This document shows positions 6,130 to 13,908 of a DNA stretch of 27,098 bases, in pieces (the first letter of the stretch is position 1; the number at the start of each line of letters is the position of its first letter). The stretch is from the NCBI GenBank assembly GCA_002385665.1, contig DGDX01000002.1, positions 1,569-28,666 of the forward strand, given 5' to 3'. The notes under the pieces were generated by a model, which was not told the DNA's origin, made no database searches, and saw only the letters and a program-made list of their open reading frames with translations. The stretch comes from Firmicutes bacterium UBA3941. Lineage in GTDB: Bacteria; Bacillota; Clostridia; Caldicoprobacterales; UBA3941. A program made the translations under genes and the position numbers.

Positions 6130-7365
6130 CTATTTAAAATTGCCCAGCTGTTTCAGCTTTACTTGTACATCCAGATTGACCTTAACGTCAGGGTAGATTT
6201 CGTCCCATTCCTCCTTTATCTCCTCCCAATAGGCGGGTTTTTGAATACGCAATATTTTATTGAATTCAAAGACATCAGCCTTATATTCCTTTTGCATTTT
6301 TCTGATAGTCCTATTGCACTGGTCTCTTACTACTTTGGCGAATTCCTTCTCACACTTCTCAATATAGGTCTTGTCTGCCTGTTGATCACTGAGAAATTCA
6401 ATTTGCCCATCATATTCCCCCTGGATTTTTATGGATATATCAAAACTCAGTTGATCTCCTGTAATATTGGGATTTATCTTTGCTTTAGATCTGGTTATCT
6501 CCATGGTAATAAGTCCCGGTTTATCATCGGGCCTATCGCCGACAATCACACCTCCACGATATAGATTACGGATAAAGTTTATGGATTCTATGTCCATTTC
6601 ATCGGCCCAGCCTACCATCTTTGCCTTTTTAAATATCGCTCCGCCTTTTATCTTAATCTCCTCTTTATTGGCCTCTACCTTGGGCAGTACAAAGTCATGC
6701 CCGGCACGAATACAATTCATAGTTGTCCTTAAGTCGGCTTTGTGGACTATCCTGAAGCTTCTATCCGAATTCAAGAGAAGATGTTTTAGATAAGCTGCAG
6801 AATGATCTTCAATTTTTGGGTTAACATCCAATATCTTTTTCGCAGAGCCCTCTGCAATATATATGTCCACCTTTGGCCGAATCTCCCTATGCCTTAGAAA
6901 AAAGTCTGCCATTTTGTCTAGTCCGTCCCTGGCTACACTGTCGGATATGATCAATACCTGAAGGTGCCCATAGAATAGGGTCAGGCTGGTCCTGGATTCT
7001 ATCTCCCTTTCCATGCTGAGAAAGGTATCCCCGGTTTGGGTTATCTGCCAGGTCTTGGACGGACTACCGCTCTCAGACCCTCCCCCACCACCCGATGCTG
7101 CCAGGGAAGGAGACTCCTTTATTATTGGGATCTGTATGGTCATATCATAGGTGGGTTTACCAGCTGATAAATCCATCTGCTGAAACTCTGCTTGTGCTGC
7201 TCCCTCCTCTCCCTCCTTGCCACCTGCGCCTTTCCCTAAGGTAGGGGGATCAACCGCTATACCCAGAACATAGCCCCATTGTTCAATCTCCTTTTTATCC
7301 CAACATCCTGTGCATATAAGTAAGCTCATTATAATTAATATATGAATAGCTCTCTTAACTCTCAT
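6130..7365 (-). CDS. gerC: Ger(x)C family spore germination lipoprotein
   Basis: C subunit of a GerA-type germinant receptor, a lipoprotein on the outer face of the spore inner membrane. The start chosen is ATG 7365, because AAGGAGG lies 8 bases upstream and it overlaps the gerB stop as ATGA. The frame is open further upstream, but that part lies inside gerB. 411 residues: basic N-terminus, hydrophobic stretch, then ICTGCWDKKEIEQWGYVLGIAVD-like start with lipidated Cys21 followed by the Trp-Asp pair typical of GerC. Two Gly/Ser/Glu-rich low-complexity inserts fall between about residues 43 and 95. The rest matches the three-domain GerC layout, including LTLFYGHLQVLIIS and a C-terminal helical domain. 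Last gene of the ger operon. Confidence 0.93.
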   Translation of the reverse strand: MRVKRAIHILIIMSLLICTGCWDKKEIEQWGYVLGIAVDPPTLGKGAGGKEGEEGAAQAEFQQMDLSAGKPTYDMTIQIPIIKESPSLAASGGGGGSESGSPSKTWQITQTGDTFLSMEREIESRTSLTLFYGHLQVLIISDSVARDGLDKMADFFLRHREIRPKVDIYIAEGSAKKILDVNPKIEDHSAAYLKHLLLNSDRSFRIVHKADLRTTMNCIRAGHDFVLPKVEANKEEIKIKGGAIFKKAKMVGWADEMDIESINFIRNLYRGGVIVGDRPDDKPGLITMEITRSKAKINPNITGDQLSFDISIKIQGEYDGQIEFLSDQQADKTYIEKCEKEFAKVVRDQCNRTIRKMQKEYKADVFEFNKILRIQKPAYWEEIKEEWDEIYPDVKVNLDVQVKLKQLGNFK

Positions 7366-8453
7366 CTGCCTTTCCTCCTTCTCATACCCGCCCGAAGGGC
7401 CATTAATGGTATAAATATCAGGAAGACGAACGTGTCTATGTATTTTGACTTTCGATAGAATTCCAGGACATCCCAATCTTTAGATATTGCAAAGGCTACT
7501 ATGGGTAATATGATCAAATGGGCGTATATCACATATTTTTCTCCTTTGGGGGGTATGGAAAAAAACTCTGTAATGTTTCTTATAGATCCATAGGAAAATA
7601 TGACCATGGATCCAAATACCATGGCAATACAAAATGTAGCCATAAAAGATTCCAACCGGTCTAAGATACCGCTCTGAAATTCCACGGACTTTGCAAGTCC
7701 CAGAGTTGGATAAAACGTCACTCTCAGTGATTCTACACCAAATACCATTATGCATATTATAGTCAAGGCAACATAGAAAAATATGGGGATACCCAGCCCC
7801 AAGATATACGCCTTTATGGCCGGCTTTTTTTCCTGGGTATAACACATAAAATATGCGACCATGGCGTATCCGGTAAAATTGTTGAATCCCGGAATGATAG
7901 CCTTAACTACGTTTGATGTATTTCTAAATAGTATAGGTTGTATATTGCTTGGATCAATCTGGGACGCAGAAATTGTAATAAGAAACATGAGGGCAATTAT
8001 GTATAACGGAAAAAGAATATCAAGGACTGCCCCTATGGTATATACCCCCTTACTTAACAGATATATAACTACAACCACCATAAACGCGACAGTAATCACC
8101 ATAGGAGTACTTTCTAGTAAAAACACCCTGATAACCTGGGCAAAGATTCTGGCGGATAATCCGGCATAGATAATAAAGAACACCATCAGCGGTATAAGGA
8201 TTACCCTCCCTAACCATTTTCCTGCAACTGCCAGGATTATCTGAGGGGCATCCTTCTGGGGATAGGCCAACATGAGATAGATTATGGGTATGGCTGCTAT
8301 AAATACCAGTAGCCCACTTAAGGCCAAGGAAATCCATGCATCCTGTTTTGCTATGGACACAATATTATGCTGAACCATAATAATATCGACTCCCAGAACC
8401 CCAGACACGACCAAAACCATTATTTGGGAGGGAGTCAAGTACTTCATCTTCAT
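7362..8453 (-). CDS. gerB: GerB/GerKB family endospore germination permease
   Basis: B subunit of the germinant receptor, from the amino acid-polyamine-organocation superfamily and thought to hold the germinant binding site. 363 residues with about ten membrane helices throughout. The N-terminus LTPSQIMVLVVSGVLGVDI is typical of Spore_permease proteins (SxxQ followed by a glycine-rich helix). It overlaps gerA upstream and gerC downstream by four bases each (ATGA), so translation of the three subunits is probably coupled. A second in-frame ATG two codons later (MKMKY) is a possible alternative start. Which germinant it senses cannot be read from the sequence. Confidence 0.93.
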   Translation of the reverse strand: MKMKYLTPSQIMVLVVSGVLGVDIIMVQHNIVSIAKQDAWISLALSGLLVFIAAIPIIYLMLAYPQKDAPQIILAVAGKWLGRVILIPLMVFFIIYAGLSARIFAQVIRVFLLESTPMVITVAFMVVVVIYLLSKGVYTIGAVLDILFPLYIIALMFLITISASQIDPSNIQPILFRNTSNVVKAIIPGFNNFTGYAMVAYFMCYTQEKKPAIKAYILGLGIPIFFYVALTIICIMVFGVESLRVTFYPTLGLAKSVEFQSGILDRLESFMATFCIAMVFGSMVIFSYGSIRNITEFFSIPPKGEKYVIYAHLIILPIVAFAISKDWDVLEFYRKSKYIDTFVFLIFIPLMALRAGMRRRKGR

Positions 8454-10105
8454 TTTTGCTGCTCTCCCTTCTTACCCTTGGGAGATTGTCTTTGTTCGTT
8501 GGAGGTATAGAGAAAGGTGGATCTCTCTGTCCTGGCCAGATCCTTACCCTTTATGACAGTCTCTTTTATATCCTTGCTCCTGTATGGAGACAGCGGCCTT
8601 ATATAACGTACACCAAAGCTCTCCAGGCTTGCCACATAGATCAGCAATATCAGCATCCCCATTGCCACTCCAAAGATACCCAGGGTTGCTGACAGTATCA
8701 TAAATGGGATGCGCAACATTCTAGTGGCTAATCCCAGACTGTAATCCGTAAATGCAAATGCACCTATAGCTGTAAGACCTATTATAATAATCATGATGGG
8801 ACCAACCAGCCCTGCCTGTACAGCTGCCTGACCAATGACCAAACCACCGACTATAGATACGGTCTGACCTATTACCCGAGACAGCCTTATACTGGCCTCG
8901 TGCAGTAACTCCAGGGAGCCCAGTAACAGTACGGCCTCCAATATTCCAGGAAATGGCACCCCGCCCCTGGCACCTGTGATGGTTAGCACCAACTTGAGAG
9001 GTAGCATACCGGTATGAAAGGTGGTTAAGGCTATGTATAATGCAGGAAGGAATGTAGAAACAAGCATACCACCATACCTGATAAGCCGCAAAACTGATAC
9101 CACAAACCAGTTTTCATAATAATCGTCAGCACTCTGTAATAGTATGGGCATTGTAACCGGCACTAATAAGGCATCAGTTCCGCCTTCCATGAATATTGCC
9201 ACCCTCCCCTCCATAATACCCCTAACTGCCCTATCCGGTCTTTCGGTAATCTGGTACAGAGGAAAGATGGAATTTGGATCATCTGTTATATACAGTCCAA
9301 GTTCAGCTGTACATAGAATGCTGTCCACATCCAAAGCTGTAATCCTTCTGGTTGCTTCATTTACTACGGCCTGATTGGCAACATCTTTTAGGTATACTAT
9401 CAAAACCTCCATCTCGCTTCTGCGCCCTATTCTATGTGCCTCAATAACTAAATTGGGGTCCCTTATTCTCTTTCGGATTAGTCCAATATTGTTCTTAAGT
9501 ATTTCTGAAAAACCCTCCTGGGAACCTCTCACCGAAGGCTCCAATATGGGCTCTCCGATCTGCCTGCCGACATACTGCTTGGAGCTTATGATAAAGCCCT
9601 TTTGATAGCCCTGAACACACAGGAAGGTATCTCCCGACATTATGGCAAAGAGGATCTCATCCAGGGTTTCCACTTCCTTTATATAGTCCGCTATTACCAT
9701 GGAATCCTTGATGGTGTTAAAAAGTATGGCATCCCCCTTTTCCAATTCCGGAGGCGAATATAGCATCAAGGGGCTTACAACGTGTTGAAGGATGATATCT
9801 TCATTGGCCAAGCTTTCTACATATATTACAACCCCATAAATATCCCGGCTGCCTAACTTAAACTCCTTTACCCTAATATCAAAGTTATTATTCATAGAGC
9901 CTTTTATATTGGCAATGTTGTCCTGGATATTTTTGGATATTCCCATATTTTTAAATTTTTGATCATATATTATTGATTCCTGTCCGCTTTTTGGAACACT
10001 ATTACTTCCTCCAGACTTCAATTGATCCTGACTATGACTCTGGCTTGACCCATCCTGTTGCCGGTTTTCCTTCCTGTTTAATATCTTATTGAAAAATTTC
10101 CACAC
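8450..10105 (-). CDS. gerA: GerA/GerKA family spore germination protein
   Basis: A subunit of the germinant receptor. 551 residues. Residues 1-50 are a hydrophilic Gln/Ser-rich tail; 50-300 a soluble cytoplasmic region; about 300-500 a membrane region with four or five helices containing GARGGVPFPGILEA and LELLHEASIRL, which mark this family. A charged tail follows. The start is GTG at 10105; the ribosome site is poor (GAAAGG lies too close, GGGGG about 11 bases upstream), so initiation may be weak. First gene of the gerA-gerB-gerC operon. A strong terminator at 10160-10193 sits only 55 bases upstream, so a promoter must lie in that short gap. I did not find a clear sigma-G site there. Confidence 0.94.
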   Translation of the reverse strand: MWKFFNKILNRKENRQQDGSSQSHSQDQLKSGGSNSVPKSGQESIIYDQKFKNMGISKNIQDNIANIKGSMNNNFDIRVKEFKLGSRDIYGVVIYVESLANEDIILQHVVSPLMLYSPPELEKGDAILFNTIKDSMVIADYIKEVETLDEILFAIMSGDTFLCVQGYQKGFIISSKQYVGRQIGEPILEPSVRGSQEGFSEILKNNIGLIRKRIRDPNLVIEAHRIGRRSEMEVLIVYLKDVANQAVVNEATRRITALDVDSILCTAELGLYITDDPNSIFPLYQITERPDRAVRGIMEGRVAIFMEGGTDALLVPVTMPILLQSADDYYENWFVVSVLRLIRYGGMLVSTFLPALYIALTTFHTGMLPLKLVLTITGARGGVPFPGILEAVLLLGSLELLHEASIRLSRVIGQTVSIVGGLVIGQAAVQAGLVGPIMIIIIGLTAIGAFAFTDYSLGLATRMLRIPFMILSATLGIFGVAMGMLILLIYVASLESFGVRYIRPLSPYRSKDIKETVIKGKDLARTERSTFLYTSNEQRQSPKGKKGEQQK

Positions 10106-11999: not shown

Positions 12000-12098
12000 G
12001 CTTGCTTTCCTTATTAAAGTCGTGATATTATAGGTCTTAAGTATAATCAATTGTTCCCCCAAATAGGGGGTTTATGGGTTTATATGGGAGGTAGCATA

Positions 12099-12509
12099 TT
12101 GAAGATAGTTGTTATTGACGGGCAAGGCGGTAGGATGGGTAAGATGGTTGTTGAACAGCTCAAGGAGGTCTTGCCGAATTATGAGCTTATAGCTATTGGC
12201 ACCAACAGCATAGCCACTGCTGCCATGCTTAAGGCAGGTGCAGACTTCGGCGCGACGGGTGAGAATCCAGTTGTATACAATTGCGCTGATGCTGATATCA
12301 TCATAGGTCCTTTGGGAATTGTTGTAGCCAATGCACTCCTTGGGGAGGTGACCCCATCTATGGCGTTGGCGGTTGGTCAGAGTAGCGCACACAAGATACT
12401 GCTCCCCATAAATAAGTGCAATAATGTAGTAGTAGGTGTCCAGGAACTCTCCTACAAGGAATATGTTGACCTGGCAATAGAGCATGTAAAGAGAATTGTT
12501 AATAAATAG
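12099..12509 (+). CDS. DUF3842 family protein
   Basis: 136 residues from TTG 12099, chosen because GGGAGG lies 7 bases upstream and the family starts with this motif; the frame is open further upstream (12051) but has no ribosome site there. The N-terminus KIVVIDGQGGRMGKMVVEQL is a Rossmann-like beta strand and glycine loop. Other motifs are AIGTNSIATAAMLKAGAD, DIIIGPLGIVVANALLGE and VGQSSAHKILLPI. DUF3842 is a small conserved clostridial family without a known function. The glycine loop suggests nucleotide or dinucleotide binding, but no partner domain is present. Single gene; convergent with the kinase gene. Confidence 0.85.
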   Translation: MKIVVIDGQGGRMGKMVVEQLKEVLPNYELIAIGTNSIATAAMLKAGADFGATGENPVVYNCADADIIIGPLGIVVANALLGEVTPSMALAVGQSSAHKILLPINKCNNVVVGVQELSYKEYVDLAIEHVKRIVNK

Positions 12510-12578: not shown

Positions 12579-13196
12579 TTATACCTTAAAAACCATATCG
12601 CATTTTCCCGGTATACCCATTTTTTCAAAATACTCATCTTCCATAGGAATCCACTCGTCTGTGAACCTTTTGTACATTAAAGGTCCATTTCGCTCAAGAA
12701 TCCTACGACTTTGTCTCTCAGAATCTATAGAGAGAAAGATCTTAAGATCGTAATATCCTATCAGGGTTGGATGCATGCTGTATACGCCCTCAATTATATT
12801 TAACTGTCTGGGGACAACTGTTACGTATTCTTCCAAGGCCATGGTCTGACAGTTGTATGGACGATATCTGAACTCCTGTCCAGTTATTAGTCCTTCTATA
12901 ACCTCTCTCTTAAACCGAACATAATCAACATTTCCTCCTACTTCCCTTAACCTCTCTTCTGTCCTCAAATCTGGAGTAAGAAAAAAATCGTCCATATGAA
13001 AGATATTGGCATCGTATATTCCCCCAAGAATATTAGCCAGGGTACTCTTTCCTGCCCCACTGTTGCCATCTATGGCTATATTTATGGGTTTTCCCAATTC
13101 CATCAGTGAGTCTATCCTGTCAAGAAGCCCGGGATATAGCTTTTGCAGTATGCTTCTTGAATTACCCCCATATGTCTTTCTAACTTTATCCTTCAT
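12579..13196 (-). CDS. Uridine-kinase-like P-loop kinase
   Basis: 205 residues from ATG 13196 (an in-frame TTG at 13205 is possible). The Walker A motif is GNSGAGKST (around residues 37-45), followed by FHMDDFFLTPDLR, RPYNCQTMALEEYVTV, NIIEGVYSMHPTL and an Arg-rich lid (RQSRRILERNG). This is the layout of uridine/pantothenate/nicotinamide-riboside type kinases of the PRK-like family; the true substrate cannot be told apart by eye. It overlaps the end of the ECF S-component gene by 11 bases and has no clear ribosome site of its own, so it is probably translated by coupling. A kinase with an uptake protein suggests phosphorylation and trapping of the imported compound. Confidence 0.82.
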   Translation of the reverse strand: MKDKVRKTYGGNSRSILQKLYPGLLDRIDSLMELGKPINIAIDGNSGAGKSTLANILGGIYDANIFHMDDFFLTPDLRTEERLREVGGNVDYVRFKREVIEGLITGQEFRYRPYNCQTMALEEYVTVVPRQLNIIEGVYSMHPTLIGYYDLKIFLSIDSERQSRRILERNGPLMYKRFTDEWIPMEDEYFEKMGIPGKCDMVFKV

Positions 13197-13719
13197 TCTG
13201 AACAACGCCCGCCCTTTTTAATGCTATGATTATAATAGGTATAATTACTATCTGAATGATGATACCGGGTATGGCGTTTAGGAAGGCACCTGACACAAAG
13301 GCTTGCCAAGTATAGGCGTTCCCGCTCAGACCCAGTAAAATTATATTAGCAATTGCCATTACAACCCTTCCGACCAGCATGGATATGAGCAAGGCAGGAT
13401 ATACATATATATCCTTTTTGGGAAACAGTTTATATAGGAGCCCTGTCATAAGACCGTAAGCACCCAGTTCAAAGGTCATTGTCGTAGCCATGGGTATGGG
13501 CGGCATTCCTGTCGTAAAGCTGCTGAGAAAGGGTGTCACGAGACCAACCACCAAACCATAAGGCCATCCACAGACAAAACCGGCTATCAGTACCGGAATA
13601 TGCATGGGCAGTAACGCCCGTCCCAGTTCCCCAACTTTCCCGGTGAAGAAAGGCAATATAACACCTAGAGCAATGAATAAACCGGCCAGGACTAAATTTT
13701 TAGTTGAATTTTTTCTCAT
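13186..13719 (-). CDS. ECF transporter S component (substrate-binding membrane subunit)
   Basis: 177 residues from ATG 13719 (GGAGGGG 5 bases upstream); the frame extends to 13794 but that part is the leader terminator. About six membrane helices. Motifs include LVLAGLFIALGVILPFF, LLPMHIPVLIAGFVCGWPYG and GAFLNAIPGIIIQIVIIP, as in the ECF_trnsprt S-component family. S components bind a vitamin or similar compound and work with a shared EcfT-EcfA-EcfA' energising module, which is not encoded here and would be elsewhere. The substrate is unknown. It is co-transcribed with the uridine-kinase-like gene and is preceded by a promoter and an attenuator-like leader, so its expression is probably controlled by a signal such as its ligand. 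Confidence 0.86.
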   Translation of the reverse strand: MRKNSTKNLVLAGLFIALGVILPFFTGKVGELGRALLPMHIPVLIAGFVCGWPYGLVVGLVTPFLSSFTTGMPPIPMATTMTFELGAYGLMTGLLYKLFPKKDIYVYPALLISMLVGRVVMAIANIILLGLSGNAYTWQAFVSGAFLNAIPGIIIQIVIIPIIIIALKRAGVVQNEG

Positions 13720-13874
13720 TTTCTCCCCTCCTATTTTTCTGAAAATAAAAAATACCATAAGATAAGCCCTTCTGCAAAAGGCCAATACCTTCATGGTATA
13801 GATACATAGCCTCTTAATTATTCAAAGTATATCTCCAAGGCATTACGCCGTTAAGCCGGCTTCTGCCAGCTGTT
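13720..13874 (-). promoter_or_regulatory. Structured 5' leader of the ECF operon: candidate riboswitch or attenuator of unrecognised class
   Basis: From a predicted start near 13874 the leader runs about 155 bases to the ECF ATG. At the 5' end GCTGGC/GCCGGC (plus 13855-13860 with 13865-13870, loop AGAA) forms a hairpin. At the 3' end a terminator hairpin (13753-13798) plus U-tract lies just before the ribosome site. A smaller hairpin ATACC/GGTAT (13785-13799) uses the same bases as the terminator's outer arm and could act as an antiterminator. I compared it by memory with TPP, FMN, THF, preQ1, cobalamin, lysine, purine, SAM and T-box leaders and saw no match. Confidence 0.6.
13741..13798 (-). 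terminator. Leader terminator hairpin upstream of the ECF gene
   Basis: Three stacked 6-bp stems on the minus strand: UACCAU/AUGGUA (13793-13798 with 13753-13758), AAGGUA/UAUCUU (13786-13791 with 13759-13764) and GCCUUU/AAGGGC (13777-13782 with 13766-13771), followed by TTTTTTATTTTC. It lies between promoter and start codon, so it can only act as an attenuator. Confidence 0.8.
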
Positions 13875-13880
13875 AACATA

Positions 13881-13908
13881 ATTCTAGCATACTTTTTATA
13901 AATGTCAA
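13881..13908 (-). promoter_or_regulatory. Sigma-A promoter of the ECF-kinase operon
   Basis: Minus-strand TTGACA (13903-13908), 16-base spacer, TAGAAT (13881-13886). Start of transcription expected near 13874. Confidence 0.78.

Follow-up and report, generated by a model that had tools for sequence, protein, structure and literature searches.

Several described RNA elements share parts of their architecture or gene context with the leader analyzed here. In the guanidine-II riboswitch (mini-ykkC), two hairpins in tandem carry short conserved loops, are joined by a variable linker, and bind their ligand through the two loops. The NiCo riboswitch (czcD) is a compact four-way-junction aptamer of metal-export genes. 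The RNA targets of ANTAR proteins also have a dual-hairpin architecture, which is bound by protein. According to the parts of PMC3369931 cited here, the criterion for these targets is a hexanucleotide loop with A at position 1 and G at position 4, the consensus is AGCAANGRRGCUY, and the eut linkers of E. faecalis are 5-12 nt long, with changes in length lowering induction. In excerpts of PMC11130926, QrtT is an ECF transporter S component of PF12822 and QueK a nucleoside hydrolase. QrtT sits in a three-gene salvage operon (excerpts of PMC11477304). None of the passages taken from the latter, a review of C. difficile riboswitches, names the tandem-hairpin motif described below, and nothing on this motif was found in the open-access literature searched.

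The leader lies in a stretch of 27,098 nucleotides from Firmicutes bacterium UBA3941, which we call the window. It is a transcription attenuator, conserved and covarying, of no catalogued class, and it is located upstream of an operon encoding an ECF S component, as the preliminary description of this DNA had proposed. Of the three outcomes that were to count against this proposal, namely an Rfam match to a known class, absence of conservation among homologous leaders, and absence of covariation, none was observed. We think it probable that this tandem-hairpin attenuator belongs to a nickel/cobalt (most likely nickel) regulon, that it is read by a protein for which DUF3842 is the leading candidate, and that the S component and its kinase are nickel-related. 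The features are as follows.

13881..13908, minus strand: sigma-70-type promoter, with the -35 box TTGACA at 13908-13903, the -10 box TAGAAT at 13886-13881, and an extended TG
13854..13871, minus strand: hairpin P1, AGCTGGC[AGAA]GCCGGCT, near the predicted 5' end of the transcript
13800..13853, minus strand: linker between P1 and P2, 54 nt, without conservation
13785..13799, minus strand: hairpin P2, ATACC[ATGAA]GGTAT, the antiterminator candidate, with the same type of loop as P1
13752..13799, minus strand: stem of an intrinsic terminator, the 5' arm of which consists of bases of P2
13752-13742, minus strand: U-rich tract directly after the terminator stem
13725..13732, minus strand: ribosome binding site AGGAGGGG, read from the sequence
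13186..13719, minus strand: ECF transporter S component (Pfam PF12822, 72.9 bits, cut-off 30.7)
12579..13196, minus strand: uridine-kinase-like P-loop kinase (Pfam PF00485, 26.6 bits, cut-off 22)
12096..12509, plus strand: DUF3842 gene (PF12953, 182 bits), convergent with the operon and encoding the candidate regulator

The promoter (TTGACA-16-TAGAAT) matches the consensus at 11 of 12 positions, the S gene starts at 13719 on the minus strand, and the ATG of the kinase gene overlaps the end of the S gene. The promoter, 5' hairpin, terminator with its U-tract, and competing hairpin at 13785-13799 that had been noticed in this DNA are all present on the minus strand, and the competing hairpin does share the 5' arm of the terminator. 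The terminator is indeed built of three blocks, but these stack 21 pairs (9+4+8) in the minimum free energy (MFE) fold, not the 18 reported earlier. The approximately 80 bases between 13799 and 13874 had been taken for a sensor; they are actually P1 and the unconserved linker, and the conserved elements are P1 and P2. The fold of the leader is better than that of 199 of 200 dinucleotide shuffles (z -3.4), and a covariance-model search (E<=5) found a single copy of the RNA in the genome. Elsewhere in the window (6130-10105), three adjacent minus-strand genes resemble, by eye, a spore germinant receptor operon.

P2 and the terminator are mutually exclusive. The computed energy of the terminator is -19.4 kcal/mol and that of P2 by itself is -3.2 kcal/mol, so the terminator should win when unaided, and the default state is expected to be OFF. 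In most leaders of relatives that were read by eye, the complement of the 5' arm of P2 recurs downstream and forms the terminator with it; in others (L052, L060, and L067) it is, again by eye, the 3' arm of P2 that enters the terminator. Both topologies exclude P2. In MFE folds, bases of P2 pair with a terminator arm in 31 of the 45 leaders of S-component genes (S leaders) that have a T-tract (5' arm of P2 in 25, 3' arm alone in 6). The same holds for 38 of the 51 leaders of other genes (non-S leaders) that have one. We postulate that, unaided, the terminator would outcompete P2 and transcription would halt. A factor that binds the loops of both P1 and P2 would hold P2, the terminator could then not form, and the operon would be transcribed. 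This factor would most likely be a protein, with DUF3842 as the leading candidate, and the RNA class would serve a regulon for uptake and use of nickel or cobalt, most likely nickel. The S component in the window would import, and the kinase phosphorylate, a nickel-related compound.

Many Clostridia have the leader upstream of this same S component. The S-component relatives compared here come from 99 related genomes, 61 of which have a match, and from 53 loci on contigs of named genomes. At least two hairpins with GAAG loops occur in 34 of 78 distinct upstream stretches versus 13 of 3900 shuffled stretches; by a strict rule, a P2-type hairpin is present in 39 of the 78 and both P1 and P2 in 24. 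P1 stems differ freely in sequence among relatives while pairing is kept, and little besides the loop and the closing C-G is retained. In these S leaders, P1 loops are mostly AGAA, TGAA, CGAA, or ANGAA and P2 loops mostly ATGAA or ACGAA, so that the loop type C-(A)NGAA-G is common to both. Several leaders (L039, L052, L056, and L068) have two P1-type hairpins. The linker ranges from 5 to 121 nt in relatives, with no conserved sequence.

A covariance model (R1), built from 18 leaders aligned with MAFFT (alignment A1), gave 52 matches (47 distinct) in 100 sources totaling 438 kb, and all 52 lie on the correct strand, 29-121 nt upstream of the S gene. In the 47 distinct S leaders, all six modeled P1 pairs change on both sides. 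Over the whole structure 80 cells are changed on both sides, compared to 23.1 in shuffles, with 96.1% paired. The 52 distinct non-S rows have 168 such cells versus 49.4 when shuffled, which supports placing S and non-S leaders in one RNA class; both of these alignments were fitted to the model and some non-S rows are probably chance. In alignment A1, which was not fitted, there are 35 double-changed cells versus 10.9 shuffled, and five of the six P1 pairs change on both sides. A promoter with at least 9 of 12 consensus matches has its -10 box shortly upstream of P1 in 34 of 46 S-operon leaders (5.5% of shuffles), at a spacing of 7-13 nt in 33 of them and 19 nt in one. Because the promoter ends just before P1, P1 should be at the 5' end of the transcript. 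Non-S leaders show no such spacing (8 of 51 versus 6.0% shuffled). These alignments also bear on ribosome-mediated attenuation, in which a leader peptide would start from the ATG in the P2 loop (13794). A frame is open from this position through the leader into the S gene of the window, but ACG replaces this ATG in 18 of the 47 distinct S leaders and in 21 of the 52 non-S ones, and the two sides of the P2 stem vary together. We consider this mechanism highly improbable.

No known class accounts for the RNA. Rfam 15 has no match in the window, the leader searched at a relaxed threshold gives two snoRNA models alone (E 2.8 and 6.2), and nothing in Rfam matches at the leaders of 20 S loci and 20 non-S loci. 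Elsewhere in the scanned loci, the Rfam matches are only tRNA, tmRNA, and one Moco aptamer. The latter (riboswitch RF01055, 65 bits, L245 807-925) is on the opposite strand near a DUF3842-CooT-CbiM cluster.

In the class of the window, the RNA is almost wholly tied to the S component. R1 (E<=0.01) gave 40 matches in 39 of 391 genomes of the class, and the best 30 of the 40 are all upstream of an S component, as are six of the remaining ten (G319, G034, G172, G303, G158, and G271). One match (G003:C10) was rejected as chance, since it is inside a gene resembling a sigma factor, and one (G257) was left out of the reading of downstream genes. In G096 the RNA follows DUF3842 and precedes a membrane-protein pair, larE (253.9 bits, cut-off 150), and a larB-like piece (53.2 bits, under the cut-off of 175). 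In G377 it precedes a methyltransferase gene, and a second, weaker match (E 0.157) precedes a membrane pair of the kind found in G096. Among 398 genomes of the phylum, R1 gave 13 matches including the window. Nine of these precede an S component, and three have other genes downstream: TrmO and then a CooC/MinD-like ATPase (CooC by eye), a permease resembling NikB, and a binding protein resembling NikA.

A second model (R2), whose E-values like those of R1 are rough, was run at E<=0.1 over the orders of two of the genomes with non-S matches. In the order of 20 genomes, 14 are positive, with 36 matches versus approximately 2 false ones expected; in the order of 63 genomes, 17 are positive, with 22 matches versus approximately 6. 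Eight of the 55 non-S matches (L114, L122, L124, L166, L167, L185, L187, and L188) match R2 by construction, as their leaders were among those used to build it. Seven of the 55 (L202, L206, L209, L218, L220, L223, and L229) have no downstream open reading frame of 90 amino acids within the DNA covered, two are near-duplicates (L194 of L187 and L214 of L205), and in five (L188, L210, L213, L215, and L216) the first frame looked spurious; the first downstream proteins of the other 41 were scanned. Among the families listed (25 of 34), there are nine CbiM, seven TrmO_N, four SBP_bac_5 (family-5 binding proteins), four oligo_HPY ATPases, three BPD_transp_1 permeases, two iron hydrogenases, and one each of CobN, DUF364 (a putative heavy-metal chelation family), Peripla_BP_2, and DUF3842; the rest are other or unnamed. 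Peptide transporters belong to these permease, ATPase, and binding-protein families as well, and the NikA/NikB-like proteins do not reach the nickel-specific NCBIfam cut-offs. Some matches are probably chance: L157 and L223 are inside genes, L186 and L168-L174 are weak (E 0.03-1.7) and looked either intragenic or devoid of the motif, and L232 has a dipeptidase downstream.

The gene order DUF3842-FmdE-CooT-[RNA]-CbiM is found in six loci (Pfam confirms FmdE and CooT in L245; the other five were read by eye). In one locus (L247) the RNA is upstream of DUF3842-FmdE-CooT, which would be autoregulation. Direct evidence for nickel comes mostly from families other than that of the window. The preliminary description had suggested a riboswitch for the transporter's own vitamin. 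This idea is weakened because the RNA precedes nickel/cobalt genes elsewhere and its co-occurrence points to a protein partner. Two further arrangements were observed. In G586 (L248 1936-7000, reverse complement), the RNA lies, by eye, upstream of two exported proteins and genes like cbiM, cbiQ, and cbiO, after which come DUF3842-FmdE-CooT. A pair of small membrane proteins follows the RNA in L150 (1202-1935), L188, and L221, once with larE and a larB-like gene. The pair in L150 has no Pfam or NCBIfam match; it is possible that such pairs are nickel transporters.

DUF3842 is found in almost every genome that has the RNA. DUF3842 is present in all 39 genomes with R1 matches and in 52 of the 99 relatives overall. 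Among genomes with an S component, it is present in 25 of 25 that are RNA-positive and in 10 of 35 that are RNA-negative (Fisher 3.8e-9, phylogeny ignored; 60 of 61 genomes, G097 left out, single rule of R2 E<=0.05). A second set gave 36 of 40 RNA-positive versus 25 of 40 RNA-negative genomes (p 0.0075, phylogeny ignored), with 9 of the 40 positives picked for their R1 match and the negatives all from the two R2 orders. Presence of the S component itself does not track with DUF3842 (35 of 61 versus 17 of 38, p 0.30). In one family, G004 has S without RNA and without DUF3842, and G000, G002, G003, and G005 have all three; in one genus, G015 (RNA by eye only) contrasts with G012. These contrasts fit joint gain or loss of the RNA and DUF3842. 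Hairpins like P1 and P2 were recognized by eye in six of the ten genomes scored RNA-negative and DUF3842-positive (G007, G047, G082, G062, G015, and G039), and also in one negative for both (G022). In four genomes (G053, G074, G076, and G096) that carry both S and DUF3842, there is no clear RNA upstream of S.

Seventeen of the 38 relatives without an S component have DUF3842, and in these an R1 search of the whole genome at a relaxed threshold (best E 0.229) and an R2 search around the DUF3842 gene (one match, E 0.38) found no credible RNA. Thus, DUF3842 may read the RNA, or it may belong to the metal pathway and work also where the RNA is absent. The predicted model (pLDDT 94) is a small plain Rossmann fold that names no function. 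Across 31 sequences, no histidine is conserved and a single cysteine mostly is, and model and sequences suggest no obvious metal or RNA site. A sequence-profile search found no relative in the PDB, and the name DUF3842 was not found in the open-access literature searched. In one genome with neither S nor RNA (G058; L262 4069-6813), DUF3842 is beside genes that resemble cobT, cobC, and cobU by eye.

Two other readers of the RNA have to be weighed against DUF3842. The RNA could be a riboswitch whose loops bind a metal ion, a nickel cofactor, or the transported compound, with DUF3842 merely in the same metal pathway. A riboswitch would be consistent with hairpins that are small, conserved, and covarying and are devoted to genes for transport and cofactors, with the mutual exclusion of P2 and the terminator, and with the 17 relatives that have DUF3842 without the RNA. 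However, P1 conserves little past its loop and closing pair, the linker length varies widely (5-121 nt), the GAA/GAA loops lack self-complementarity, and the RNA co-occurs almost perfectly with one protein in S-component genomes. We regard a riboswitch as rather unlikely, if still the stronger of the two competitors. Slightly less likely again is antitermination through the dual hairpins by some other RNA-binding protein, neither ANTAR nor DUF3842. The architecture is that of the protein-bound ANTAR targets (PMC3369931, in the parts cited), and no ANTAR domain was found in 23 of the 39 RNA-positive genomes. Against such a protein, no further family was found linked to the RNA, and the real-looking gene clusters in more than six loci near S, within flanks of approximately 1.5-2.5 kb, are S, kinase, and DUF3842. 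We return to DUF3842 as the leading candidate. In its most specific form, which we put forward only tentatively and with about the same low confidence as the riboswitch, the proposal is that DUF3842 proteins are new metal-status-sensing RNA-binding antiterminators that control the nickel (or nickel/cobalt) regulon of Clostridia-like bacteria through tandem (A)NGAA hairpins, and that the S component and kinase of the window salvage a nickel-pincer-type nucleoside cofactor.

A nucleoside would be a fitting substrate for a uridine-kinase-like enzyme, and hence we propose nucleoside salvage by the S component and kinase; the compound might be of the nickel-pincer type just named or a different nicotinate riboside. 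The compound is proposed to be nickel-related because the RNA links S to nickel genes and because of two loci. In G080 (L251 2009-3283, reverse complement), S is overlapped by a gene for LarA (621.5 bits, cut-off 460), the nickel-dependent lactate racemase and a nickel-pincer enzyme; in L038, a CbiM-like gene (143 bits, below its own cut-off) follows the kinase. The G080 locus is without an RNA leader and is the only direct link between S and LarA, and LarA does not track S across the 99 relatives (38 of 61 with S, 18 of 38 without). The window kinase reaches no NCBIfam cut-off and is without an N-terminal domain of approximately 170 residues that is present in many relatives and stands alone in L098. 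This domain has no Pfam family, its best PDB sequence match (E 0.017) is not convincing, and its model (pLDDT 92.5) has no Foldseek match (best E 2.6); thus, it does not tell the substrate of the kinase. The C. peptidivorans kinase (L044) also lacks the domain, with a remnant visible by eye. The window S component is like S components of the FolT/QrtT kind in its family, PF12822, and its comparable size. It differs from that kind in its score of 33 on TIGR04518, for which the cut-off is 60, and in its partners, a P-loop kinase and, in a single genome, LarA. Queuosine salvage was rejected, since QueK, as described in the cited part of PMC11130926, is a nucleoside hydrolase and the kinase would be left unexplained.

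Nickel enzymes carry much of the energy metabolism of these anaerobes. No RNA-level control of nickel uptake in them was found in the open-access literature searched, and finding this switch before genes for nickel and cobalt uptake in other bacteria suggests that a circuit of metal control lies hidden here. Such control becomes directly testable with an RNA class that covaries, a metal regulon of several genes, and a single candidate protein partner. The analysis also provides a first functional lead for DUF3842 and suggests a purpose for a widespread orphan pair of ECF S component and kinase.

Among described RNAs, the ANTAR antiterminator targets (eut, nas, and ami) are similar in having two small hairpins with a common loop, the second of which overlaps the 5' part of an intrinsic terminator, such that double binding would antiterminate. 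A loop that begins with A and has purines before the closing G also resembles the consensus in the cited parts of PMC3369931. The leader could thus be the target of an ANTAR protein of the EutV/NasR type. This reading failed on the defining features of loop, linker, and ANTAR protein, and we give it very little credence. The loops here are tetraloops and pentaloops, (A)NGAA, rather than hexaloops with A1 and G4; the linker is long and variable, far outside the range cited for eut; the stems are 5-6 bp; and the target genes are for nickel/cobalt. An ANTAR match is found in just 16 of the 39 RNA-positive genomes (14 of the 31 near-complete ones), and that of the window genome falls below the Pfam cut-off.

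The guanidine-II riboswitch is likewise similar in its tandem hairpins, short conserved loops, and variable linker. It differs in that the loops here are not ACGR throughout (ACGAA is one of several variants), have no self-complementary C-G and no Rfam match, and precede other target genes. The NiCo riboswitch (czcD) resembles this RNA in serving genes related to nickel and cobalt. In contrast to that riboswitch, which is associated with export genes, the RNA described here has no Rfam match and precedes genes for uptake and cofactors.
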